Below, piece after piece: positions 145 to 12,083 of a DNA stretch of 36,252 nt. Position 1 is the first letter of the stretch, and each line of letters starts with the position of its first letter. The notes beneath the pieces are model-generated. The model was given only the letters and a program-made list of their open reading frames with translations. It was not told where the DNA came from and made no database searches. Source of the DNA: Selenomonadaceae bacterium (lineage in GTDB: Bacteria > Bacillota > Negativicutes > Selenomonadales > Selenomonadaceae); assembly GCA_017549815.1 (NCBI GenBank), contig JAFYNH010000082.1, positions 1-36,252 of the forward strand. Reading direction: 5' to 3'. The position numbers were made by a program, and so were the translations under genes.

Positions 145-474
145 ATGTCGAAGATATTAGATTTTAAAGCGATAGTAGACGATAGTAATTATTTGGGCAA
201 AGGGATAATCGAAAGTATATTGGACTACAAATTTTTGAACAAAATAGATTCGAGTCTCAGCGTTTACAATGATTTTGATGAATTAAGGGCGATAGTTAAG
301 TCCGAATACGCCAAATATGGTATAAACACGATTATTTACGGTCGTCGCGGTAATGAATACTATAATGGGACTGAAAAAATCGGCAGGAACGAGTTATTGG
401 AGCTGATAAAGTCGCAAACAGGTTCTGAATTAGAAATAGAGCCGTACTTGGAAGAAAATTTCATATGGGAATAA
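145..474 (+). CDS. Small hypothetical protein with the island's Y-x-N-G core motif but no GG leader
   Basis: A 109-residue soluble acidic protein of unknown function. I chose the ATG at 145 over an in-frame TTG at 127 because AAGGA (131-135) sits 9 nt upstream of it. The segment at residues ~60-95 (GIN..., GNEYYNG, then an I-x-R-N-E-L helix) aligns by eye with the C-terminal core of the GG-leader peptide at 2830-3192 (GIE..., NKYYLNG, I-T-Q-E-E-A). It is therefore probably a leaderless relative of those peptides, for example an immunity or partner protein. That role is inference. The N-terminus has no double-glycine site, signal peptide or membrane segment. A terminator follows at once. Confidence 0.7.
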   Translation: MSKILDFKAIVDDSNYLGKGIIESILDYKFLNKIDSSLSVYNDFDELRAIVKSEYAKYGINTIIYGRRGNEYYNGTEKIGRNELLELIKSQTGSELEIEPYLEENFIWE

Positions 475-864: not shown

Positions 865-893
865 TTGACAGAACAAAATTTTTTTGCTAGACT
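865..893 (+). promoter_or_regulatory. Sigma-70 promoter, peptide cassette 1
   Basis: TTGACA (865-870), 17 bp, TAGACT (888-893). A leader RNA conserved among the cassettes follows: TTGTAAC..GGAATTT..GACGTATAAA.., then AAGGAG. Confidence 0.8.
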
Positions 894-953
894 TGTAACT
901 AAAAGGAATTTGAGACGTATAAAGGACAGAAAATAGAAAGGAGACTGATAAAA

Positions 954-1148
954 ATGGCAACACGTGAGGAAAACATTAAGAAAATCAATGACGAACTCGA
1001 AAAGATGAGCGACAAAGAACTCGAACAAGTCGCGGGCGGAGCTTATGATCAAACAGCTGATTTCAAATGGTATAACAATGTCTATAATACGTATAGTCTT
1101 AACAGTAGAAAAATCTCTCAAGAGATGACCGAAGCCGGTTTGAAATAG
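954..1148 (+). CDS. Double-glycine leader peptide 1 (64 aa)
   Basis: The precursor has a 29-residue leader beginning MATREENIKKIN and ending VAGG, the cleavage site type recognised by C39 peptidase-containing ABC exporters (established for GG-leader bacteriocins). The predicted core is 35 residues, Tyr/Asn-rich and cysteine-free. It retains a short Y-S-L-N-S-x-x-I-S motif, matching YYLNG-x-x-I-T in the peptide at 2830. AAGGAG at 938-943 precedes the ATG by 10 nt. It has its own promoter and terminator. Cleavage, export and activity are inference; no exporter is in the window. Confidence 0.85.
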   Translation: MATREENIKKINDELEKMSDKELEQVAGGAYDQTADFKWYNNVYNTYSLNSRKISQEMTEAGLK

Positions 1149-1180
1149 TAAAAAAAAACTCGTCTCGGCATTAAAAAAAG

Positions 1181-1207
1181 CCCTTCGGAATATGTCGGAG
1201 GGTTTTT
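1181..1207 (+). terminator. Rho-independent terminator, cassette 1
   Basis: CCCTTCG/CGGAGGG stem (one G-U pair), 8-nt loop, then TTTTT. Confidence 0.85.
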
Positions 1208-1209
1208 CG

Positions 1210-1238
1210 TTGACAGAATAAAATTTTTCTGCTAGATT
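1210..1238 (+). promoter_or_regulatory. Sigma-70 promoter, peptide cassette 2
   Basis: TTGACA (1210-1215), 17 bp, TAGATT (1233-1238), 2 nt after the T tract of the preceding terminator. Confidence 0.85.
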
Positions 1239-1298
1239 TGTAACGAAACGGAATTTAAGACGTATAAATGACAGAAAACAGAAAGGAGAAAGATAAAA

Positions 1299-1646
1299 AT
1301 GGCAACACGCGAGGAAAACATAAAAAAAATCAACGTGGAACTCGAAAAGCTCACCGATGAGGAACTTGACCAAGTTGCAGGCGGCTCATGGTTTATTACG
1401 GAGGAACAGGCAAAAATGTCAGGTCTTACGTTGAAAAAAGAGGATGGATCGCCCGGGAGTTTCGGTTATCTTTGGAATACAGGCGATTATTACTGGAATG
1501 GAAAAAAACTTTCATTGACAGATGCCTACAATGTAACGTATTTCGTGAAATGGAATGGTAGACAGCCGAATTCTCTTGACGAAGCAAACAATTATGCTTC
1601 GGAAACCAGGGGCGTTCATCAAAAAGATGAAATGGAATGGTATTGA
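1299..1646 (+). CDS. Double-glycine leader peptide 2 (115 aa)
   Basis: Same 29-residue leader ending in VAGG, then an 86-residue core starting SWFITEEQA. The core holds a block nearly identical in the next two genes (LTLKKEDGSPGSFGYLW, NTGDYYWNG) followed by a divergent tail ending EMEWY. It has no cysteine, so lanthionine or disulfide chemistry is unlikely. SD GAAAGGAG, ATG at 1299. An upstream ATG in the leader RNA is out of frame here, which supports the MATREEN start for the whole family. The 3' end is partly duplicated after the stop (see repeat). Likely a secreted peptide of unknown action. Confidence 0.87.
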   Translation: MATREENIKKINVELEKLTDEELDQVAGGSWFITEEQAKMSGLTLKKEDGSPGSFGYLWNTGDYYWNGKKLSLTDAYNVTYFVKWNGRQPNSLDEANNYASETRGVHQKDEMEWY

Positions 1647-1690
1647 AGAAGCAAACAATTATGCTTTGTAAACCGGGAGCGTTCATTAAA
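1581..1690 (+). repeat. Imperfect 67-bp tandem duplication of a peptide gene tail
   Basis: GAAGCAAACAATTATGCTT at 1581 recurs at 1648, and similarity continues about 40 bp (AAACC.GG.GCGTTCAT..AAA). The first copy is coding; the second lies after the TGA at 1644-1646. It is a footprint of slippage or recombination at the 3' end of a cassette. Confidence 0.85.
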
Positions 1691-1722
1691 AGTAATAAAA
1701 TCGTTTGTAGAGCTAAGAAAAG

Positions 1723-1748
1723 CCCTTCGGAGTGATTCGGAGGGTTTT
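1723..1748 (+). terminator. Rho-independent terminator, cassette 2
   Basis: CCCTTCGG...TTCGGAGGG stem-loop followed by TTTT. Confidence 0.8.
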
Positions 1749-1752
1749 CGCA

Positions 1753-1781
1753 TTGACGGCGGAAAATTTTTCTGCTAAACT
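1753..1781 (+). promoter_or_regulatory. Sigma-70 promoter, peptide cassette 3
   Basis: TTGACG (1753-1758), 17 bp, TAAACT (1776-1781). Confidence 0.8.
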
Positions 1782-1841
1782 TGTAACGAAACGGAATTTA
1801 AGACGTATAAAGGAATGAAAACGGAAAGGAGAAAGATAAAA

Positions 1842-2171
1842 ATGGCAACACGCGAAGAAAATCTTAAAAAAATCAACACGGAACTCGAAAAGCTCACCGA
1901 TGATGAACTTGATCAAGTGGCAGGCGGCTCGTGGTATATTAAGGAGAAAGATGCAAAACTCGCAGGTATTACGTTGAAAAAAGAGGATGGATCGCCCGGG
2001 AGTTTCGGTTATCTTTGGAATACAGGCGATTATTACTGGAATGGAGAAAAAATTAAACGTAAAGATGCCTACGCTGTAATGTATTTTGTGAAATGGAATG
2101 GTAGACAGCCTAGTTCTCTTGAAGAAGCAAAAAAATATTTTGGCGATGCTGGAGCCTTGCCGTTGAAATAG
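1842..2171 (+). CDS. Double-glycine leader peptide 3 (109 aa)
   Basis: Leader MATREENLKKIN...VAGG (29 residues), then an 80-residue core beginning SWYIKEKDA. The central block (ITLKKEDGSPGSFGYLW, YYWNG) and KWNGRQPSS are shared with its neighbours; the tail ends GALPLK. I chose the ATG at 1842. An in-frame ATG at 1815 would add nine residues encoded by the conserved leader RNA including the SD itself (AAAGGAGAA), so it is not a likely start. No cysteine. Probably an exported product of the same family. Confidence 0.86.
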   Translation: MATREENLKKINTELEKLTDDELDQVAGGSWYIKEKDAKLAGITLKKEDGSPGSFGYLWNTGDYYWNGEKIKRKDAYAVMYFVKWNGRQPSSLEEAKKYFGDAGALPLK

Positions 2172-2211
2172 TAACCAAGAATAATAAAATCGTTTGTAGA
2201 GCTAAGAAAAG

Positions 2212-2237
2212 CCCTTCGGCGTATGTCGGAGGGTTTT
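2212..2237 (+). terminator. Rho-independent terminator, cassette 3
   Basis: CCCTTCG...CGGAGGG stem then TTTT. The 35 bp before it (AATAAAATCGTTTGTAGAGC...) are nearly identical to those before the cassette 2 terminator. Confidence 0.8.
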
Positions 2238-2241
2238 CGTG

Positions 2242-2270
2242 TTGACGGAGCAAAATTTTTATACTAAACT
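2242..2270 (+). promoter_or_regulatory. Sigma-70 promoter, peptide cassette 4
   Basis: TTGACG (2242-2247), 17 bp, TAAACT (2265-2270). Confidence 0.8.
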
Positions 2271-2330
2271 TGTAACGAAATGCGATTCACGACGTATAAG
2301 CGGCAGAAAACAAATTGGAGGTTGATAAAA

Positions 2331-2675
2331 ATGGCAACACGCGAAGAAAATATCAAAAAAATCAACACGGAACTCGAAAAGCTCACCGATGAGGAACTTG
2401 ACCAAGTGGTAGGCGGCTCGTGGTATATTACGGAGGAACAGGCAAAAAAGTCAGGTCTTACGTTGAAAAAAGAGGATGGATCGCCCGGGAGTTTCGGTTA
2501 TCTTTGGAATACAGGCGATTATTACTGGAATGGAGAAAAACTTTCACCTTCAGATGCCTGCCATGTAATATATTTCGTGAAATGTAATGGTAGACAGCCT
2601 AGTTCTATTAAAGAGGCAAATGAATATTATGCCGATGATAGAGATGATGATGTGGGATTTGAATTGGCCATTTAA
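2331..2675 (+). CDS. Double-glycine leader peptide 4 (114 aa)
   Basis: The leader is identical to the family except for VVGG in place of VAGG at the processing site. The core has 85 residues: SWYITEEQA, the shared LTLKKEDGSPGSFGYLW and YYWNG blocks, and two cysteines (DACHVIYF and VKCNG) that its sisters lack, which could form a disulfide. The tail is acidic (DDRDDD). ATG at 2331 with TTGGAGGT upstream; an in-frame ATG at 2280 lies within the conserved untranslated leader. Unknown activity. Confidence 0.86.
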   Translation: MATREENIKKINTELEKLTDEELDQVVGGSWYITEEQAKKSGLTLKKEDGSPGSFGYLWNTGDYYWNGEKLSPSDACHVIYFVKCNGRQPSSIKEANEYYADDRDDDVGFELAI

Positions 2676-2710
2676 GATAATTGATAAAATCTTTTTAACA
2701 GCTAAAAAAG

Positions 2711-2736
2711 CCCTTCGGAGTGATTCGGAGGGTTTT
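2711..2736 (+). terminator. Rho-independent terminator, cassette 4
   Basis: CCCTTCGG...TTCGGAGGG then TTTT, same sequence class as cassette 2. Confidence 0.8.
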
Positions 2737-2740
2737 CGCA

Positions 2741-2769
2741 TTGACGCAGGAAAATTTTTTTGCTAAAGT
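2741..2769 (+). promoter_or_regulatory. Sigma-70 promoter, peptide cassette 5
   Basis: TTGACG (2741-2746), 17 bp, TAAAGT (2764-2769). Confidence 0.8.
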
Positions 2770-2829
2770 TGTAACGAAAAGGAATTTAAGACGTATAAAG
2801 GAATGAAAACAGAAAGGAGAAAGATAAAA

Positions 2830-3192
2830 ATGGCAACACGTGAGGAAAACATTAAAAAAATCAATATGGAGCTCGAAAAGCTCACCGATGAGGAACTTGA
2901 CGGAGTGGCAGGCGGAAATTGCTACCAAATGGCAGATGACAGCCGCTTTCTTAACAGTTTGAATGGCTCGTGTGACCGTTACGGTGCTACGAAGATATTT
3001 TTGGAAATAGTTAATTACAAAGAGATTCGGAAGGCGTGGTCGCAAGTAGGTATTGAAGCACACATAAAGACTTATACGACAGGAGAAAACAAGTATTATC
3101 TTAACGGGCAAGAAATAACGCAGGAAGAGGCGCGTCAGCACGCAATGAAAGTTACGGGGCATTATATGAGCGAATCCGAATGGAACTGGTAA
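2830..3192 (+). CDS. Double-glycine leader peptide 5 (120 aa)
   Basis: Leader MATREENIKKIN...GVAGG (29 residues) and a 91-residue core that differs from peptides 2-4. It starts NCYQMADDS, has two cysteines (NCYQ, GSCDRY), a predicted helix (FLEIVNYKEIRKAW) and the shared NKYYLNGQEIT motif, and ends SEWNW. ATG at 2830; the in-frame ATG at 2803 is part of the conserved leader RNA. It links the family to the leaderless protein at 145-474. Function unknown. Confidence 0.86.
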   Translation: MATREENIKKINMELEKLTDEELDGVAGGNCYQMADDSRFLNSLNGSCDRYGATKIFLEIVNYKEIRKAWSQVGIEAHIKTYTTGENKYYLNGQEITQEEARQHAMKVTGHYMSESEWNW

Positions 3193-3220
3193 AAAAAAAT
3201 CGTCTCGGCTAACAAAAACG

Positions 3221-3250
3221 CGGCGGACGGTCGCAATCGATGATAAAAAG
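3221..3250 (+). repeat. 30-bp repeat before a terminator (second copy 3765-3793)
   Basis: CGGCGGACGGTCGCAATC followed by [GA]ATGATAAAAA occurs at 3221-3250 and again at 3765-3793, each time just upstream of a CCCTTCGG terminator. It adds to the evidence that cassette ends are copied as units. Confidence 0.85.
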
Positions 3251-3278
3251 CCCTTCGGCATAATGTCGGAGGGTTTTT
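3251..3278 (+). terminator. Rho-independent terminator, cassette 5
   Basis: CCCTTCGGCATAATGTCGGAGGG-type hairpin followed by TTTTT. Confidence 0.85.
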
Positions 3279-3281
3279 ACG

Positions 3282-3310
3282 TTGACAGAATAAAATTTTT
3301 TTGCTAGGCT
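3282..3310 (+). promoter_or_regulatory. Sigma-70 promoter, Nif11-leader cassette
   Basis: TTGACA (3282-3287), 17 bp, TAGGCT (3305-3310), followed by the same leader RNA as the MATREEN genes. Confidence 0.8.
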
Positions 3311-3370
3311 TGTAACGAAATGGAATTTAAGACGTATAAAGGAATGAAAACAGAAAGGAGAATGATAAAA

Positions 3371-3736
3371 ATGAAAGGTTTCAAGGAATTTAAGGCAAGA
3401 ATGGAAAGTGACGAGGCATTTAGGGAGAAATTCAGAGATGTTAAGGACGAAGAGCAACTTTTGGCACTTACGCGTGCTGAAGGTTACGACGTTGAAATTC
3501 TCGACGAAGAAGACCTCGACGTAGTTGCAGGCGGAGCTAATGCTGCAGATAATTTCAAAAAAGTATCTGATACAGCGGAAAATGAAGTCAGCAACGCATT
3601 TAATAGAGGAGTTAATAACATTGGAAATGCAATAGGCAATTTGAAAAAGGATATTGTTAGAAGTACATCTGTACCTAAAGTTGTAATTGAAACGGCAGCA
3701 GCGAAAGTTTTGCAATATGTACGTTGGTTGTTTTAA
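3371..3736 (+). CDS. Nif11-type leader peptide (121 aa)
   Basis: The N-terminus (MKGFKEFKARMESDEAFREK..., LLALTRAEGYDVEIL, DEEDLDVVAGG) is a Nif11-like leader, known from lanthipeptide and other RiPP precursors, ending in AGG at residues 53-55. The 66-residue core is Ala/Asn/Val-rich, cysteine-free and partly amphipathic (FNRGVNNIGNAIGNLKK). SD GAAAGGAG, ATG at 3371; an in-frame ATG at 3320 lies in the leader RNA shared with the MATREEN cassettes. The same control region thus drives two unrelated leader classes. No modification enzyme is seen nearby. Confidence 0.85.
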   Translation: MKGFKEFKARMESDEAFREKFRDVKDEEQLLALTRAEGYDVEILDEEDLDVVAGGANAADNFKKVSDTAENEVSNAFNRGVNNIGNAIGNLKKDIVRSTSVPKVVIETAAAKVLQYVRWLF

Positions 3737-3796
3737 GTAAAAAAAAAGTTCACGAGGCTCAAAAGGCGGCGGACGGTCGCAATCAATGATAAAAAA

Positions 3797-3828
3797 CCCT
3801 TCGGCGGAGGTTGTCGGAGGGTTTTTTT
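3797..3828 (+). terminator. Rho-independent terminator closing the island
   Basis: CCCTTCG (3797-3803) pairs with CGGAGGG, then seven T (3822-3828). Confidence 0.85.
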
Positions 3829-4479: not shown

Positions 4480-5717
4480 ACTTGAATGAAGGCATGAATA
4501 AGGACGCAGAACTGTTTGCGGCGGTAGAAAATGAATTGAATCGTCAGCGCAACAAATTGGAGCTAATCGCGTCGGAAAATATCGTAAGCAAGGCGGTAAT
4601 GGAGGCGCAAGGCTCGGTTTTAACGAACAAATACGCGGAAGGTTATCCTAGCAAAAGATATTACGGCGGTTGCGAATTCGTAGACGTAGCGGAGCAGTTG
4701 GCTATAGATCGTGCAAAGAAGCTTTTTAACTGCGCATATGCAAATGTACAGCCGCATTCTGGCGCACAGGCGAATACAGCGGTATATTTTGCGCTTGCGA
4801 AGCCCGGCGATACGATAATGGGCATGAATTTAACGGACGGCGGTCATTTGACGCACGGATCGCCCGTAAATTTGAGCGGGAAGTATTTTAATATCGTTCC
4901 ATACGGAGTAAGTCGCGAAACAGAGACGATAGACTATGATGAACTGGAAAAAACGGCTTTTGAGTGCAAACCGCGCATAATAGTAGCTGGCGCGTCGGCA
5001 TATTCGCGGATAATAGACTTTGAACGGCTTGCAGACACGGCAAAAAAGGTCGGAGCGTATTTAATGGTTGATATGGCGCACATAGCGGGGCTTGTAGCGG
5101 CTGGATTGCATCCAAGTCCGTTGCCCTATGCTGATGTAGTGACTTCGACGACGCATAAAACGCTTAGAGGACCTCGCGGCGGCTTGATTTTGTGCAACGA
5201 TGCGGAATTTGGCAAGCAATTCAACAAAGCAATCTTTCCCGGCACACAGGGAGGACCTTTAATGCACGTAATAGCGGCAAAAGCTGTTGCATTTTTCGAG
5301 GCATTACAGCCCGAATTCAAGGAATATGCCGCGCAGATTATCAAAAACGCTAAGATATTGGCTGAAACGTTGACAGCGGACGGATTTAGGATAGTAAGTG
5401 GCGGCACGGACAATCATTTAATGCTGGTTGACTTGACGAGCAAGAATATAACTGGCAAAGAGGCGCAAAACGTGCTTGACGAGGTAAATATTACTGCGAA
5501 CAAGAATACAATCCCGTTTGAGCCGCGCAGTCCGTTTGTTACGAGTGGATTAAGGCTTGGAAGTCCTGCATTGACGACACGCGGCTTTAAAGAAGCGGAC
5601 ATGAAGGAAGTTGCCGACATAATCGCGCTTGTACTCAACAATCCGAGCGATGAAGGCAAAAAAATAGAAGCGCGGGCAAGAGTCGCCGCCCTCTGCGAAA
5701 AATATCCGCTTTATTAA
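4476..5717 (+). CDS. glyA: Serine hydroxymethyltransferase
   Basis: PLP enzyme interconverting serine and glycine with tetrahydrofolate; the main cellular source of one-carbon units. 413 residues, normal for bacterial GlyA. The PLP Schiff-base lysine is K228 in [23 protein letters not shown] near the N-terminus and YPSKRYYGG are diagnostic. The reading frame is open further upstream to 4371, but the ATG at 4476 has GGAGG 7 nt upstream and matches the family N-terminus. It overlaps tsaC by 4 nt and is followed 11 nt later by the PAP2 gene. Confidence 0.97.
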
Positions 5718-6716: not shown

Positions 6717-9485
6717 TTATTTATCGTTGTGTTTAAGTCGTTTAATATGGAAAGTACCGGTTTCGACTTCTTTTCTATGGCAATGAGGGCATTCATTGGT
6801 AATAATGCCGGTGTAGCCGCAAACGGGGTCGCGGTCGACTGGGTGATTGATTGAAAAATAGCCCATATTGGCATCATGCATAGCCCTGACGAGAGCCTCG
6901 AACGCGGAAAGATTTTTAGTAGGGTCGCCGTCCATTTCGATATAGGCGATATGCCCCGCGTTGCAGATAGCGTGGTAGGGAGCCTCAATCCTAATCTTAT
7001 CGCCCGCGCAGATAGGGAAATAAACGGGCACATGACTTGAATTAGTCATATAAGGTCGGTCAGTGACGCCTTTTATATTTCCGTAGATTTTTCTGTTTGA
7101 ACGTTGGAATTGTCCGGCTGTTGATTCTGCGGGCGTTCCAAAGGTCGTCCAGTTACGTTTTTCGCGCTTAGTATAATCGTCGGTACGTTCGCGCAGGTGT
7201 TTGACGATTTTCAAGCCTAATTCTTGAGCGTCATTGCTTTGCCCGTGATGTTTACCGATTAAAGCGACCAGACACTCTGCAAGTCCGCAAAAGCCGATTG
7301 AATAGCTTGCGTGCTTTAAAACGTCTTTAATTTTATCGGTCGGCTTGAGTTTTTCGGAGTCCATCCAGACGCCCTGCCCCATAAGGAACGGGAAATTATA
7401 AACGTGCTTTTCTTCGATAACCTTGAGCCGACACAACAAATAATCATGGCAAAGGGTTATGTACTTATCATAGAGGCGGAAGAATTCTTCGATATTGCTT
7501 TTTGATTCAAGCGCGAGCTTCGGCAAGTTAATCGTCACGAAAGCAAAATTCCCGCGACTGCCCGATTCTTCGCGCCCGTTGACGTTTGACATAACGCGGG
7601 TTCGGCAATTCCCCGAATTTATAAATGACAAAGTGAATTTATCCGTTGCCGTCTCAAGGTCGTAACTGCATTTATCAAGACTGCCGAGCGTTTCAATCGA
7701 AGTGACAGCTATAACATCAGGAGTTTTGGTTGATGATTCGACACCGTTCCATTGTAAAAAAGCCTTTTTGCCGCTACCAAGATTTGTTGCAATCTCGTTG
7801 CTCATGGAAAATTCAACGCGGTAACGAATTTTTGTAATTTCTTCGGCGTCATAATGATTCAAATAAAGTTTCGCGGGATAACCCAGTGATTGTGCCAAAG
7901 CCAACTGTTGAAGTGACAATTCTTTATTCGTCGAGCCGATTTGAACTTTCGATTTACTGCTTATATGTCCGTCACCGTCAATCATTCCTGCCAAGAAAGC
8001 TAAACGAATTTTTCGCGGCGCAGAAAAAATTTCATTCGGAATGGAACGTTCGGATTTGAGTTCGCCGCCGAAAATATTTTTAAGGTACATTCCAAGTTTC
8101 TTTTGCTCGCCACAAATTCTAACTAAATCATAACAACCTTTGACACCGCGATTATAATTTTGGACGTGACAATCGAAATTCCAAGCTTTTTTTACGCTCT
8201 CAATATATTTAGCCTCAATATCTGCTTCCGTATTTCCGTCTAAAGCTACGCAAATGTCATGAGAATAGTTGCCGTCAGTAATTATAAGCCCGAGAGCGTA
8301 GGCAAGATTTTCATCAATAGTCGAAGTGGTGATGCTATTTTCGGGTAAAGTGAACCATGTCTTAATTGTATCGCCTACTCGCAAGTCTTTGACATAAATT
8401 CGCCCGCGATTTTCTGTGTAAAGCGGATGGTCGGCAGTTACGAGAAGACTTCGACCATTACTGAATTTAATGCGTGCCCAATTACCCATGTCGGGATTTT
8501 TAATGACGGTTTTAACGTTGACAAAGCCGTTTTCGCCGTCCCAAACTTCAAGTTCTGTGGGGATTTTGTATTCGCTTAAATCTTGTTTCAAAATCTCAGA
8601 ATCAATGCGTTGCCAAAGTCGTTTCAAACCCTCGCAATAAATTTTTCCTTTACGACGATAAACGACAATCTCGTCGCCGTCAGCACAACCCATGGTCGCC
8701 ACATAACTGTTATAATCACCGGGCTTGTAGTATTGCAAATTATACGGTGCGTCCAATGAGACGAAATTTGGGAAAAGACGTTTTGCACTGACTTTGCAAG
8801 CTTGTCTGAACAAATCGTAGTTTGGGTCGTCGACGTTATAATTAACACCGCTTTTAAGCTGAAAAACACTTATCGGGAAAATTGGAGTTTCGCCGTTACC
8901 GAGCCCCGCGTCGATTGCGTTCAAAACCTCGCGGGTAACTAAGCGACCTTCGGGCGAAGTGTCCATACCGTAATTTATGGAACTGAAAGGAACTTGTGCA
9001 CCTGCCCTGCTGTGGAGCGTATTAAAATTATGAATCAATGCTTCCATAGCTTGATGAGTTTCTTCTTCAACGTCCGCGCAGGCTTGCTTATAAATTTTTG
9101 CCGCGAGTTTTTCCGAGCCGATAATTTTTGTTAAGTTTTCGACGGCGATGGGATTTTCTCCCTCAGAATAAGTGCAAATATTAAAATCAATTTCGCCTGC
9201 CGCAGTTACGTCGCAAAATTCGCAGGCGCGTTTAAGCTCGTTTTCTATCGCCTTCTTAAAAGATTTTCTTACACCTTCAGCCATTGCATAATCAAAGGCG
9301 TTTATACTTTGCCCGCCAAACATATCATTTTGATTGCTTTGCACTGCTATACATGCCAACGACGCATAAGAACGAATGGAATTTGGCTCGCGAAGAAAAC
9401 CGTGCCCCGTCGAAAAGCCGCCGTGAAAAAGTTTCAGCAAATCGATTTGGCAACAGTTAAACGTTATTAAACTGAAATCCTTGTC
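6717..9485 (-). CDS. nrdD: Anaerobic ribonucleoside-triphosphate reductase, exon 2 (with in-frame intein)
   Basis: Main catalytic part of the class III ribonucleotide reductase, which makes dNTPs anaerobically. The exon resumes at DKDFSLITF, with NCC (equivalent of phage T4 Cys79) followed by QIDLLKLF, then GFSTGHGFLREPN and SNQND. The exteins meet at ATMG|CRTRVMSN, where the Cys is the thiyl-radical cysteine (T4 Cys290). A 360-residue intein splits this site. Mature spliced protein: 731 residues. The C-terminus has a zinc-ribbon-like PVCGYTG...CPHC but ends ~20 residues later without the R-[VI]-[CT]-G-Y-L glycyl-radical motif. No nrdG activase gene lies in the window. An unspliced frame could start at TTG 9440 but would lack the ATP cone and NCC. 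Confidence 0.93.
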   Translation of the reverse strand, partial: DKDFSLITFNCCQIDLLKLFHGGFSTGHGFLREPNSIRSYASLACIAVQSNQNDMFGGQSINAFDYAMAEGVRKSFKKAIENELKRACEFCDVTAAGEIDFNICTYSEGENPIAVENLTKIIGSEKLAAKIYKQACADVEEETHQAMEALIHNFNTLHSRAGAQVPFSSINYGMDTSPEGRLVTREVLNAIDAGLGNGETPIFPISVFQLKSGVNYNVDDPNYDLFRQACKVSAKRLFPNFVSLDAPYNLQYYKPGDYNSYVATMGCADGDEIVVYRRKGKIYCEGLKRLWQRIDSEILKQDLSEYKIPTELEVWDGENGFVNVKTVIKNPDMGNWARIKFSNGRSLLVTADHPLYTENRGRIYVKDLRVGDTIKTWFTLPENSITTSTIDENLAYALGLIITDGNYSHDICVALDGNTEADIEAKYIESVKKAWNFDCHVQNYNRGVKGCYDLVRICGEQKKLGMYLKNIFGGELKSERSIPNEIFSAPRKIRLAFLAGMIDGDGHISSKSKVQIGSTNKELSLQQLALAQSLGYPAKLYLNHYDAEEITKIRYRVEFSMSNEIATNLGSGKKAFLQWNGVESSTKTPDVIAVTSIETLGSLDKCSYDLETATDKFTLSFINSGNCRTRVMSNVNGREESGSRGNFAFVTINLPKLALESKSNIEEFFRLYDKYITLCHDYLLCRLKVIEEKHVYNFPFLMGQGVWMDSEKLKPTDKIKDVLKHASYSIGFCGLAECLVALIGKHHGQSNDAQELGLKIVKHLRERTDDYTKREKRNWTTFGTPAESTAGQFQRSNRKIYGNIKGVTDRPYMTNSSHVPVYFPICAGDKIRIEAPYHAICNAGHIAYIEMDGDPTKNLSAFEALVRAMHDANMGYFSINHPVDRDPVCGYTGIITNECPHCHRKEVETGTFHIKRLKHNDK
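7608..8687 (-). other. NrdD intein with LAGLIDADG homing endonuclease
   Basis: 360-residue in-frame protein intron. It begins with Cys1 (CADGDEIVVY, splicing block A), has T84-A-D-H87 (block B), two LAGLIDADG helices (~128-142 ALGLIITDG and ~229-243 LAGMIDGDG), block F (SYDLETATDKFTL) and ends FINSGN before Cys+1 of the C-extein. The penultimate residue is Gly rather than the usual His; some active inteins tolerate this. It lies directly before the catalytic cysteine, a typical conserved-site insertion. It contains none of the CCGCGCAG octamers found in the exteins. Confidence 0.93.
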
Positions 9486-10383
9486 CGTAATTTTGACTAT
9501 ATCATAATCTCTTTCGAGATTCCGGGCACTTCGGAATGCGGAATTTCACCGTAAACCTACTCTACTCGCCTTTTAAACTTTCGATAGTCGATTAACTTTA
9601 CTTTTCAAGTCCACAATAGAAATTATGCCGCAATTTTTAAATTCAATAACGTCTTCGCCATTCAAAAATTTAATAATGTTATTATAAATCCATGTCAAAG
9701 ATTTTCCTGTCAACTCAGTTAATTCCGACATCATATATAATCGTCCGTTTTCACCGTGAATCTCAAAACGATAACGCGGATTTCGTCTTCCAGAAGAACA
9801 GCCTGACGCAATCTGACCAGCAGATATATTCTTAGCAGTTTTATCGCGAAATTCTTTATCATTCCAACGAATGGAATTATTCAAAGAGACGTTGTTAAAA
9901 CCTTTTTCGCGTGCCCTGCGATTATTTTCTTTTTTAGTAACCCATTCAAGATTTTCGGCGGAATTATTGAAATGATTGTTGTCCAAATGATCAACATCCA
10001 ATTCTGAATAATTGGCAGGCGGATTGCAAAAAAGATAAGCAATGAGACGATGAACACTGAAACGTTTTGGCTTCCCCTCGATTCTTAGCGTTACTTTGGC
10101 ATAAGAACCGTAACAATCAAACTTAAGAAATTTTTTAGTCAGATTTGAATAGATTCGCCCTTCCGAGTATACTAGATAATCATGGAAACTCTTAATGGAC
10201 ATTCGGCATAACCTCCTTTCCTCGAAAAGTCTTAGCACAGGATTCGTCTTAAGACATCCCCTGTCAGCCCCGCCACAAATTGCCATTTCCTGCAATGCCG
10301 TTTTTGCGTCAGCGGGACACCTCAAATTTTTGAGTTCACCCGGTTTTTCATAGCGCGTCACCACGCTAAGCCACGACTTTTTC
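9486..10383 (-). mobile_element. Putative group I intron in nrdD
   Basis: Joining 10384 to 9485 restores the NrdD frame exactly: IHIH (exon 1) + DKDFSLITF (exon 2). Unspliced, exon 1 reads EKVVA-stop. The 5' exon ends in T (CAT) and the intron ends in G, as group I introns require. Near the 3' end, GATATAGTC (9505-9497 region) can pair with GACTATC (~9589-9583), fitting the P7 R/S elements, and TCTCGAAAGAGA forms a hairpin between them. The 5' part contains a GGGTGAACTC..., GTGTCCCGCTGACGC and GCAGGAAATGGC core-like stretch. About 898 nt, encoding an HNH protein. Class and exact ends need a covariance model. Confidence 0.8.
9573..10202 (-). CDS. Intron-encoded HNH homing endonuclease
   Basis: 209-residue nuclease within the nrdD intron. 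An N-terminal domain (SFHDYLVYSEGRIYSN) precedes the HNH core HRLIAYLF...VDHLDNNHFNN...NLEWVTKKEN (~51-93), and a C-terminal NUMOD-like DNA-binding helix region follows (LYMMSELTELTGKS). Start chosen at ATG 10202, which has AAAGGAGG about 9 nt upstream; the frame is open further upstream into intron core sequence. The stop codon overlaps the presumed P7 5' strand (KVNRLSKV-stop spans GACTATC), as is common for intron ORFs packed against the ribozyme. It would cleave intronless nrdD alleles to spread the intron (family knowledge). Confidence 0.88.
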   Translation of the reverse strand: MSIKSFHDYLVYSEGRIYSNLTKKFLKFDCYGSYAKVTLRIEGKPKRFSVHRLIAYLFCNPPANYSELDVDHLDNNHFNNSAENLEWVTKKENNRRAREKGFNNVSLNNSIRWNDKEFRDKTAKNISAGQIASGCSSGRRNPRYRFEIHGENGRLYMMSELTELTGKSLTWIYNNIIKFLNGEDVIEFKNCGIISIVDLKSKVNRLSKV

Positions 10384-10890
10384 ATGGATATGGATCCAGT
10401 TTTCCTTATCAGCAATCACGAATTCTTCAGGCAAGACGTAGTTATCAACGAAGTACTTGGAGCTTTCCGCGCCGAGTTTTAGCATAATGCCCATTGAAGC
10501 ATCGGTATTAATGTTGGCGTTATCGCGCTTTAAATCAATGTCTACAGAGTCGGCGAAAAAAATATCGCGGTAAGTGTCCATTAATTTTTTCTGCGCGGCG
10601 CGGCGTTGAGAATGCTTTTGCCGATAAACGATGAATTGCTTGGCAACGTCGAAGAAACCATGCGCCATTAAACATTTCTCGACTTGGTCTTGAATAGCCT
10701 CGACGCCGATAATTTCGTTCTCGGAAATCGCTTGCTCAACCGAATCCGTCACAAGTTCCAATTCTTCGTCGGAAAGTCTGTCGGCAGGTGTTGTAGCGTC
10801 TCGATTCGCGCCGACTATCGCATTAAAGATTTTCTCGCGGTCGTATGAAACCTTTTGCCCCGAACGTTTCCTAACCTTTGTCAGTTGCAT
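10384..10890 (-). CDS. nrdD: Anaerobic ribonucleoside-triphosphate reductase, exon 1 (ATP cone)
   Basis: The first 169 residues of NrdD. An ATP-cone allosteric domain (KVRKRSGQKVSYDREKI... to YRQKHSQRRAAQ, ~1-100) is followed by the start of the catalytic barrel (NANINTDASMGIM, KENWIHIH). The ATG at 10890 has AAAGGAGGAGG just upstream; the longer frame to 10971 runs through the promoter. Without intron removal, translation would end five codons into the intron. A promoter with TTCACA-17-TATAAT lies 32 nt upstream. Confidence 0.93.
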
Positions 10891-10921
10891 ATTTCCTCCT
10901 CCTTTCAAATGTAGTGGCGTG

Positions 10922-10950
10922 ATTATACCATTTGCAGGCTGGTTTGTGAA
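10922..10950 (-). promoter_or_regulatory. nrdD promoter
   Basis: On the - strand: TTCACA (10950-10945), 17-bp spacer, TATAAT (10927-10922). Five of six bases match at -35, all six at -10. Confidence 0.8.
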
Positions 10951-11055
10951 CATACCCGAATTTGACGCCAAAACGCGAAAGGCAATACGTCAAATGCATT
11001 ATGACGCGCTGTCACAAAGTCGACGACTCGAAAAATTTTTTATGCGACTTTATGA

Positions 11056-11703: not shown

Positions 11704-12083
11704 CGTTCAAGCTCCTCAACTTCGACGCTCGCCGCGTTAATCTTGAGCAAATAATAAATATCGTCCCTCTCCGAATTAAAATCCGTGTCGACCGCGAAGA
11801 TTGTAAAATTTCCGTCCTTGTCCAACTTACTACTACGAATTTCACTGTCAATTTCCGCGTCAAAAATTCTGTCGGCAATGGCGGCATAATATTCAAAGCA
11901 TGAAACGTCATTAAACGTTACGCGAATCCAACCGTTAGGCGGCTCATTCTTGTCATACCAAAGTTGCATCCAAAAGCAAAAGAAAATTTTAAACTTGAGG
12001 ACTTTTTTATTGGCGTCGAAGTCAATGTTCTCAATGCTACTGTCATGCAAATAATATTTTTCATCGAATTCCGCAATGGTCAT
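11691..12083 (-). CDS. Hypothetical protein, 130 aa
   Basis: Unknown. The sequence begins MTIAEFDEKYYLHDSSIENI. A short N-terminal H-D-S motif followed by alternating beta-strands (KKVLKFKIFFCFW, WIRVTFNDVSCFEYY, NFTIFAVDTDF) gives an all-beta, acidic, cytosolic protein. Similar HDS-starting small proteins are often found as immunity-like or orphan proteins, but I do not claim that function. ATG at 12083 with GAAGGTG 6 nt upstream. It stands alone on the - strand between + strand genes. Confidence 0.7.
   Translation of the reverse strand: MTIAEFDEKYYLHDSSIENIDFDANKKVLKFKIFFCFWMQLWYDKNEPPNGWIRVTFNDVSCFEYYAAIADRIFDAEIDSEIRSSKLDKDGNFTIFAVDTDFNSERDDIYYLLKINAASVEVEELERYKS

Follow-up and report, generated by a model that had tools for sequence, protein, structure and literature searches.

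We provide a structure-function and evolutionary analysis of a window of 36,252 bases, the whole contig C81 of a draft genome of a Selenomonadaceae bacterium (2.77 Mb, 94 contigs, 94% complete), in which positions 865-3828 hold six single-gene units, here called cassettes, each with its own promoter, an upstream element of about 60 nt, a Shine-Dalgarno sequence and a strong terminator. Their products carry double-glycine (GG) leaders in front of diverse cores, and we consider it probable that they belong to a set of mini-proteins which are regulated together, remain unmodified and are secreted by NHLM export. A profile of five cassette products finds relatives on contigs C90, C72, C42 and C5, and at least 19 GG-precursor genes are present on eight contigs (C81, C90, C72, C42, C5, C29, C63 and C79), the array representing about one third of this genome-wide set.

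This supports a model according to which the array would form part of a larger repertoire of small secreted proteins, dispersed over the genome and regulated together, with each cassette predicted to be a transcription unit of its own, composed of promoter, shared upstream element and terminator. The C39 peptidase of the NHLM exporter encoded on contig C72 would cut the leader after GG during the passage through ABC, HlyD and TolC components; from exporter, leader and co-occurrence we strongly infer both the cleavage and the export of the cassette products. Outside the cell, the long core is predicted to fold alone into an α/β-domain of about 80-95 residues acting unmodified. The sequence patterns suggest that diversity would be maintained by duplication of cassettes, by new combinations of leader and core, and by conversion of blocks from one cassette to another. 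The role may be an interaction with neighbours or surfaces, and regarding the activity of the cores our guess would be antagonism in the first place and adhesion or biofilm formation in the second.

Cassette architecture, leaders and probable export

The promoter pattern TTGAC[AG]-17-TAnnnT, in which the third n is any base except A, occurs seven times on both strands of the window compared to 0.41 occurrences expected from a first-order Markov model, and six of the seven head cassettes, in agreement with an earlier note on this DNA proposing an own promoter for each gene. The terminators abutting the next promoter, which the same note had described, fold as strong hairpins followed by a T run in all six cassettes (CCCTTCGG/TCGGAGGG-type; minimum free energies from -16.3 to -20.4 kcal/mol, z from -3.65 to -8.06), a mechanical terminator scan picking up only that of cassette 6. 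Promoters and terminators together predict separate transcription of each cassette (Table 1). Between the stop codon and the terminator of any cassette in 865-3828 there is no separate same-strand open reading frame (ORF) of at least 40 amino acids (aa), so that a paired immunity gene is not apparent for any of them. Some cassettes carry at this location a conserved GCGGCG[GC]ACGGTCGCAATC element (window positions 3223 and 3769; L019:11437; L020:8786; L021:5334 and 4927, - strand), all six occurrences in the seven stretches scanned lying between stop codon and terminator.

Table 1. Coordinates of the array features and of the adjacent leaderless gene in the window
Feature	Position	Strand	Remark
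Leaderless long-core family member beside the array	148..474	+	core profile E 4.4e-7; E 1.4e-6 in phylum-sample search
Cassette 1 sigma70-type promoter	865..893	+	TTGACA-17-TAGACT
Cassette 1 bipartite upstream element GTAAC..CGTATAA	895..922	+	22 exact genome sites
Cassette 1 precursor	954..1148	+	29-aa GG leader, 35-aa core
Cassette 1 terminator	1170..1208	+	z -4.71
Cassette 2 promoter	1210..1238	+
GTAAC..CGTATAA before cassettes 2-6	1240, 1783, 2272, 2771, 3312	+
Cassette 2 precursor	1299..1646	+	86-aa core with DGSPGSFGYLWNTGDYYWNG block
Cassette 2 terminator	1709..1748	+
Cassette 3 promoter	1753..1781	+
Cassette 3 precursor	1842..2171	+	80-aa core, predicted H-E-E-E-H-H fold
Cassette 3 terminator	2205..2240	+
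Cassette 4 promoter	2242..2270	+
Cassette 4 precursor	2331..2675	+	85-aa core, two Cys
Cassette 4 terminator	2702..2738	+
Cassette 5 promoter	2741..2769	+
Cassette 5 precursor	2830..3192	+	91-aa core, widespread long-core family, predicted α/β-domain
Cassette 5 terminator	3245..3280	+
Cassette 6 promoter	3282..3310	+
Cassette 6 precursor	3371..3736	+	55-aa Nif11 leader ending VVAGG, 66-aa basic core
Cassette 6 terminator	3791..3828	+	hairpin fold and mechanical terminator scan

Five of the six products share a 29-aa double-glycine leader, as had been noticed before, and the sixth has a 55-aa Nif11 leader. The double-glycine consensus is LS..EL...GG, and the cassette leaders show this pattern; the model TIGR01847 scores 15.7 bits at a cut-off of 15.7 for cassette 4 and 15.6, 14.0 and 14.5 bits for cassettes 1-3. 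All 132 relatives whose leader has 29 aa show L23, G28 and G29, these relatives having been selected by such a pattern. The Nif11 leader of cassette 6 (PF07862; E 3.5e-7, 30.8 bits compared to a cut-off of 23.8) is the single PF07862 match in the whole genome, and it scores 27.4 bits with TIGR03798 for Nif11-derived peptides (N11P), under the cut-off of 32.3. Cassettes 1-5 give no PF07862 match at E <= 1 and at most 15.8 bits with TIGR03798, and by their leaders they do not qualify as N11P.

A full NHLM-type export system is encoded at one locus of the genome outside the window, on contig C72 (L019). A cassette resembling those of the array in leader type and upstream element (L019:11456-11818) is followed there by genes for a TolC-type protein, an RND-adaptor-type protein, NHLM HlyD (TIGR03794), NHLM ABC1 with C39 peptidase (TIGR03796) and NHLM ABC2 (TIGR03797), the three NHLM proteins scoring above the curated cut-offs (score/cut-off: TIGR03796 980/853.3, TIGR03797 746/709.4 and TIGR03794 230.5/156.2 bits). 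A GG-processing exporter, the lack of which would have refuted the interpretation in the earlier note, is thus present. The genome has three more C39 matches: two on C66 are HlyB-like, scoring above the TIGR01846 cut-off, and the third, a protein of 236 aa on C91, hits no NCBIfam model at E 1e-5. Of the 66 genus genomes compared, 40 of the 50 bearing precursors have a full-scoring NHLM ABC1, and so do 6 of the 16 precursor-less ones (Fisher p 0.0035). Three of six same-family genomes from other genera have exporter and precursors and three have neither, and 47 genomes from other families of the class show the exporter in six and a precursor match in none.

Predicted core domains and their possible maturation and function

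The cores span 35 to 91 residues, exactly the range given earlier. Their description as acidic and mostly cysteine-free needs correction: only three of six are clearly acidic (isoelectric points (pI) 4.56, 4.99 and 5.89; the others 6.25, 9.27 and, for cassette 6, a basic 9.60) and four of six are free of Cys, neither property being general. Conserved blocks across the cores had also been claimed; the DGSPGSFGYLWNTGDYYWNG block exists, but in three of the six cores only (genes 2-4). For comparison, a leader pattern served to collect 208 unique precursor genes out of 131 sequences (the window and 130 loci, many of them overlapping); since selection was by this pattern and the named loci are those among the matches listed, the set leans to this leader type. 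Cores of at least 60 aa are encoded by 143 of the 208 genes and shorter ones by 65, with a pI below 6 in 41% of the long and 23% of the short cores. The architecture seen most among long cores begins with T..ETA.DSrFL..L and continues with a helix that closes with G-I and then N.Y..nG..IS..EA; the pattern N.Y....G..[IV]S fits 92 of 137 cores of at least 70 aa compared to 0.4 when shuffled. Cassette 1, to judge from its residues, looks like a long core with the middle missing by an internal deletion. A [DE]-aromatic-x-aromatic C-terminus (EWNW, DWKW; e.g. window 3178-3189) occurs in 27 of the 137 long cores, mostly within one core subtype, compared to 3.2 expected by shuffling, and could be a structural cap or a recognition tail.

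AlphaFold2 models the core of cassette 5 from 54 natural sequences as H-H-H-E-E-E-H (H, helix; E, strand) with a predicted local distance difference test (pLDDT) of 94.3 and a predicted template modelling score (pTM) of 0.86, and the core of cassette 3 from seven sequences as H-E-E-E-H-H (pLDDT 82.4, pTM 0.69). A profile of cassette 3-type cores matches the C-terminal half of the cassette 5-type (85% probability, E 6.2e-6). The cassette 5 core is thus predicted to be a folded α/β-domain of about 90 aa, and in these models the long cores resemble folded domains of proteins more than peptides. For the 54 long cores, Pfam and NCBIfam offer no model that stands out (best single-member E 0.022 and 0.0043), the core profile hits PDB sequences only at chance level (best E 0.36), and among solved structures and viral predicted structures there is no clear match to the long core. 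The impression that the core family is not a recognised one stands in these searches, none of which yielded a homologue with a characterised role.

Class II bacteriocins and microcins combine a double-glycine leader with a C39 exporter, and the cassettes resemble them in both respects. A repertoire of such unmodified killing peptides would fit the leader (TIGR01847 at its cut-off for cassette 4), the basic core of cassette 6 and replacement-rich change in some gene pairs. However, the absence of paired immunity genes before the terminators speaks against bacteriocins in the plain sense, α/β-domains are predicted for the long cores, and no core matches a bacteriocin family in Pfam or NCBIfam above cut-off, so that we regard this as rather unlikely.

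The same lack of paired immunity genes is in favour of secreted adhesion or biofilm proteins acting like EbfG1-4 of Synechococcus elongatus. Passages on this system show that small GG-motif proteins can serve biofilm formation, a direct precedent for a non-killing role, and that efficient EbfG secretion needs the peptidase cysteine of the C39 transporter PteB (PMC4997328). Many similar copies would fit redundancy, and cassette 1 has a weak score with the cyanobacterial GG family NF038167 (19.4 bits, below the cut-off of 32). In contrast to the four cotranscribed EbfG genes described there (PMC4997328), the cassettes are predicted single-gene units with up to dozens per genome; we found no relation to the EbfG cores and no sequence relation above cut-off, and the core diversity seems to exceed the needs of a structural matrix protein. 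We consider this explanation doubtful.

A third alternative is that the products are NHLP/Nif11-type precursors of ribosomally synthesised and post-translationally modified peptides (RiPPs), with cores matured by a radical SAM or another enzyme encoded elsewhere and exported as natural products. NHLM exporters were defined together with the NHLP and Nif11-derived (N11P) precursor families by Haft, Basu and Mitchell 2010, and the parts on these systems describe, similar to our case, an exporter trio (TIGR03794/03796/03797), large paralogous precursor families and a conserved leader ending in GG (PMC2887384). The Nif11 leader of cassette 6, the aromatic C-termini of long cores and five SPASM proteins in the genome, one of them encoded next to a GG precursor that shares the upstream element, point in this direction. 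However, five of the six leaders are short and below the TIGR03798 cut-off, and while the nitrile hydratase-like part of NHLP precursors is, in those parts of the paper, the leader before GG, the conserved predicted fold lies here after GG. At E <= 0.001 there is no match to a LanC-like or a YcaO enzyme in this 94% complete genome, i.e. to neither of the enzymes by which a lanthipeptide or a thiazole/oxazole-modified microcin system would be recognised, in agreement with the predicted folding of unmodified cores. None of the SPASM proteins is encoded on C81, C90, C42 or C5, the match on C72 lies about 25 kb from the cassette of that contig, and no maturase was recognised among the listed neighbouring ORFs, of which only some were scanned, other maturase classes not being searched for. 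Together with the high-confidence prediction of unmodified folding of the long core, this makes maturation into RiPPs distinctly improbable for the array.

The SPASM protein beside a GG precursor is found on C79 (L144:181-1881), where a gene for a 64-aa GG precursor (LSKDELDAVTGG) with the same upstream element is followed by one for a 499-aa radical SAM/SPASM protein. This precursor has no long core, and as judged from its genes the pair appears to be a separate RiPP-like system sharing the regulatory element; its presence means that some members may be modified. Prochlorosins and synechococsins are comparable in that one conserved leader type precedes many hypervariable cores without known function, but according to passages of PMC10783134 prochlorosins are lanthipeptides made by one promiscuous enzyme of the ProcM group, whereas the present genome yielded no LanC-like protein, and for the cores a domain-like fold is predicted.

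The upstream element and diversification of the repertoire

The upstream 61 nt of the six cassettes share 44-59 identities across the 15 pairs. They contain the bipartite element GTAAC..CGTATAA, of which the genome has 22 exact sites compared to one for the reversed pattern. Eighteen of these stand before GG-leader genes and one before a gene with a GG-like leader (EELDEVAAAG), the remaining ones being located before a winged-helix regulator, at a place without a clear gene and within a coding region; one C90 cassette carries only the second half of the element. A conserved leader RNA of about 60 nt had been proposed for this region in the earlier note, and while the sequence conservation was confirmed, a structured RNA leader was rejected: the window has no Rfam match at the gathering threshold, and all four upstream regions folded, out of six, are no better than shuffles, for which reason we prefer the term linear motif to leader RNA. 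Two cassettes (L019 ~11820-11930; L021 ~5126-5240, - strand) have a longer upstream region with a near-identical insert of about 60 nt (GAGCCGCAAGGGACAAGCTGAATAGACAGC...) ahead of the Shine-Dalgarno sequence.

The element exists in two versions, ACGTATAA and GCATATA, present in 147 and 30 of the 208 precursor genes, with three CGTACAA and 28 unclassified; one GCATATA assignment (L039) looks like chance. With these 31 rows (CGTACAA and unclassified) left out and genome names sharing identical genes merged, a single version is found in 30 of 31 genomes with at least two classified cassettes (26 with the first, four with the second, one mixed), compared to a mean of 13.5 and a maximum of 21 in 10,000 shuffles. 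The precursor-rich genomes G002, G011, G013, G034, G039 and G058 have zero exact sites of the first version, one G058 cassette being classed as first version on its second half alone. On the core tree, the version is distributed nearly at random (18 changes compared to 17-22 when shuffled; 111 of 135 tree rows), which together with the one version per genome suggests core lineages being older than, or moving between, the versions of the genomes. The simplest reading of these patterns would be a trans-acting reader which changed together with its sites, homogenisation by conversion being the alternative. The winged-helix protein (Trans_reg_C) on C42, although preceded by the element, is not supported as this reader because it fails to co-occur with precursors: homologues are present in 16 other genomes of the genus, eight of them without precursor matches, and are absent from most precursor-bearing genomes.

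Runs of 25-28 identical codons are common to genes 2-4. Within a block of 26 codons there are zero synonymous changes in any pair, and permutation of codon states reached such runs in 0, 0 and 5 of 10,000 trials. Behind the block the cores show 20-24 replacements compared to 2-4 silent changes, and the ratio of nonsynonymous to synonymous substitution rates (dN/dS) of these pairs is 0.78-1.33, compared to family medians of 0.31 for cores (289 of 353 pairs usable, 64 with dS >=1.5 or zero being dropped) and 0.18 for leaders (191 pairs). A tree of 135 long cores requires at least 28 changes of leader type compared to 34-53 when shuffled, suggesting that leader and core are linked, but loosely, and that types reassort; cores cluster weakly by genome (101 genome-label changes compared to 109-118). 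The trees were quick and short, and change counts are therefore probably inflated. The identical codon runs and the leader changes support a repertoire built by cassette duplication and recombination, as in the earlier suggestion of duplication and gene conversion.

One precursor gene is identical in the genome of the window and in that of another species of the genus (G035), a hint of recent transfer. In a genome from another genus of the family (G147; L192:4447-7574), GG precursors flank resolvase-like and TnpB-like ORFs, as seen by eye, which are possible means of cassette movement. For a mobile or phage origin there is no evidence at the sensitivity of the searches: cassette 5 has no match in plasmids or phages at E 0.01, and in IMG/VR two stretches fit a pattern and none was confirmed.

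Several observations weigh against a repertoire of unmodified proteins exported by the NHLM system and diversified by reassortment. Ten of the 50 precursor-bearing genomes of the genus lack a full-scoring exporter; among genomes of high completeness, there is no full-scoring exporter in G063 (98% complete, contamination 6), and in G033 (96% complete, contamination 9) there is a broken copy only. The exporter is also found in 6 of 16 precursor-less genomes of the genus and in 6 of 47 from other families, and an exporter-type gene stands beside a cassette in only 4 of 106 relative loci, one of these being TolC alone. One of the five SPASM proteins adjoins a GG precursor with the same upstream element, and neither cassette 6 nor the short cores (65 of 208 below 60 aa) have the long-core architecture. 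Leader and core are not independent, the 28 changes lying below all 200 shuffles, and dN/dS is mostly below 1 family-wide, with only 31 of 289 usable pairs (10.7%) above 1, by which strong positive selection in general is rejected for the family.

Neighbouring genes, distribution and biological meaning

Beside the array lies a gene for a leaderless member of the long-core family (Table 1), a second one being found on contig C39 (L190:1739-1996); both share ESILDYKFL...YYNG..KI.R and may act inside the cell, as partners or in the manner of immunity proteins. Terminators weaker than those of the cassettes are found at the leaderless gene of the window and at the following one (559-822). The latter encodes an 87-aa protein, has its own TTGACT-17-TAAAGT promoter and shows a weak similarity below cut-off to MqsA-type antitoxins (E 0.096). 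Elsewhere in the window, an apparent anaerobic ribonucleotide reductase gene (6717-10971, - strand) looks split when inspected by eye in the ORF list, the interruptions being an intein-like insert (LAGMIDGDGH motif) and a separate HNH-type ORF (9573-10415).

The names of at least 76 loci with this leader are those of Selenomonadaceae, Selenomonadales or Quinella sp. 1Q5 and 1Q7, the ruminant stomach being the source of many, and from these names we infer that the genus of the window is Quinella or a neighbour. Up to 28 precursor matches occur in one genome. In a sample, not a census, of 398 genomes from the phylum, the long-core profile matches four, three of the same family including that of the window and one weakly elsewhere (E 5e-5).

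Quinella is described, in parts of PMC9585023, as an iconic uncultured rumen genus which is more abundant in some low-methane sheep. The main text of this genome paper has no mention of bacteriocin, lantibiotic, antiSMASH or secondary metabolism terms, and a large secreted repertoire therefore seems undescribed there. In its main text, the paper on Hungate1000 bacteriocins (PMC13289728) has two general double-glycine passages and no mention of Selenomonas, Quinella or Nif11, and passages of a rumen gene-cluster paper report Selenomonas sactipeptide clusters without naming Quinella (PMC8241843). Literature searches found nothing joining double-glycine, bacteriocin and rumen Selenomonas, nor double-glycine exporters in Selenomonadaceae, and for Quinella and bacteriocin nothing relevant by title among the matches listed. 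The cassette system thus seems undescribed in the literature looked at.

A more far-reaching view, which we put forward tentatively and hold for less probable than not, combines these lines into a genome-wide system of Quinella-type rumen Selenomonadaceae that would be neither a RiPP nor a classical bacteriocin system. It would comprise single-gene cassettes by the dozen, cores of a new family of folded domains, leaders that can be exchanged and an upstream element changed in concert. As the shared element would have changed at the loci of a genome together, its trans-acting reader must, within this view, have changed as well, and the leaderless copies would be intracellular partners for immunity or control.

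If the favoured reading of unmodified secreted mini-proteins is true, NHLM export would extend from modified natural products to folded mini-proteins, and the long cores would form a small domain family that is new and has been modelled with high confidence. Recombinant proteins make cleavage, structure and activity approachable, no culture being needed. The cassettes would then be an example from nature of recombination among leader, core and regulatory element.

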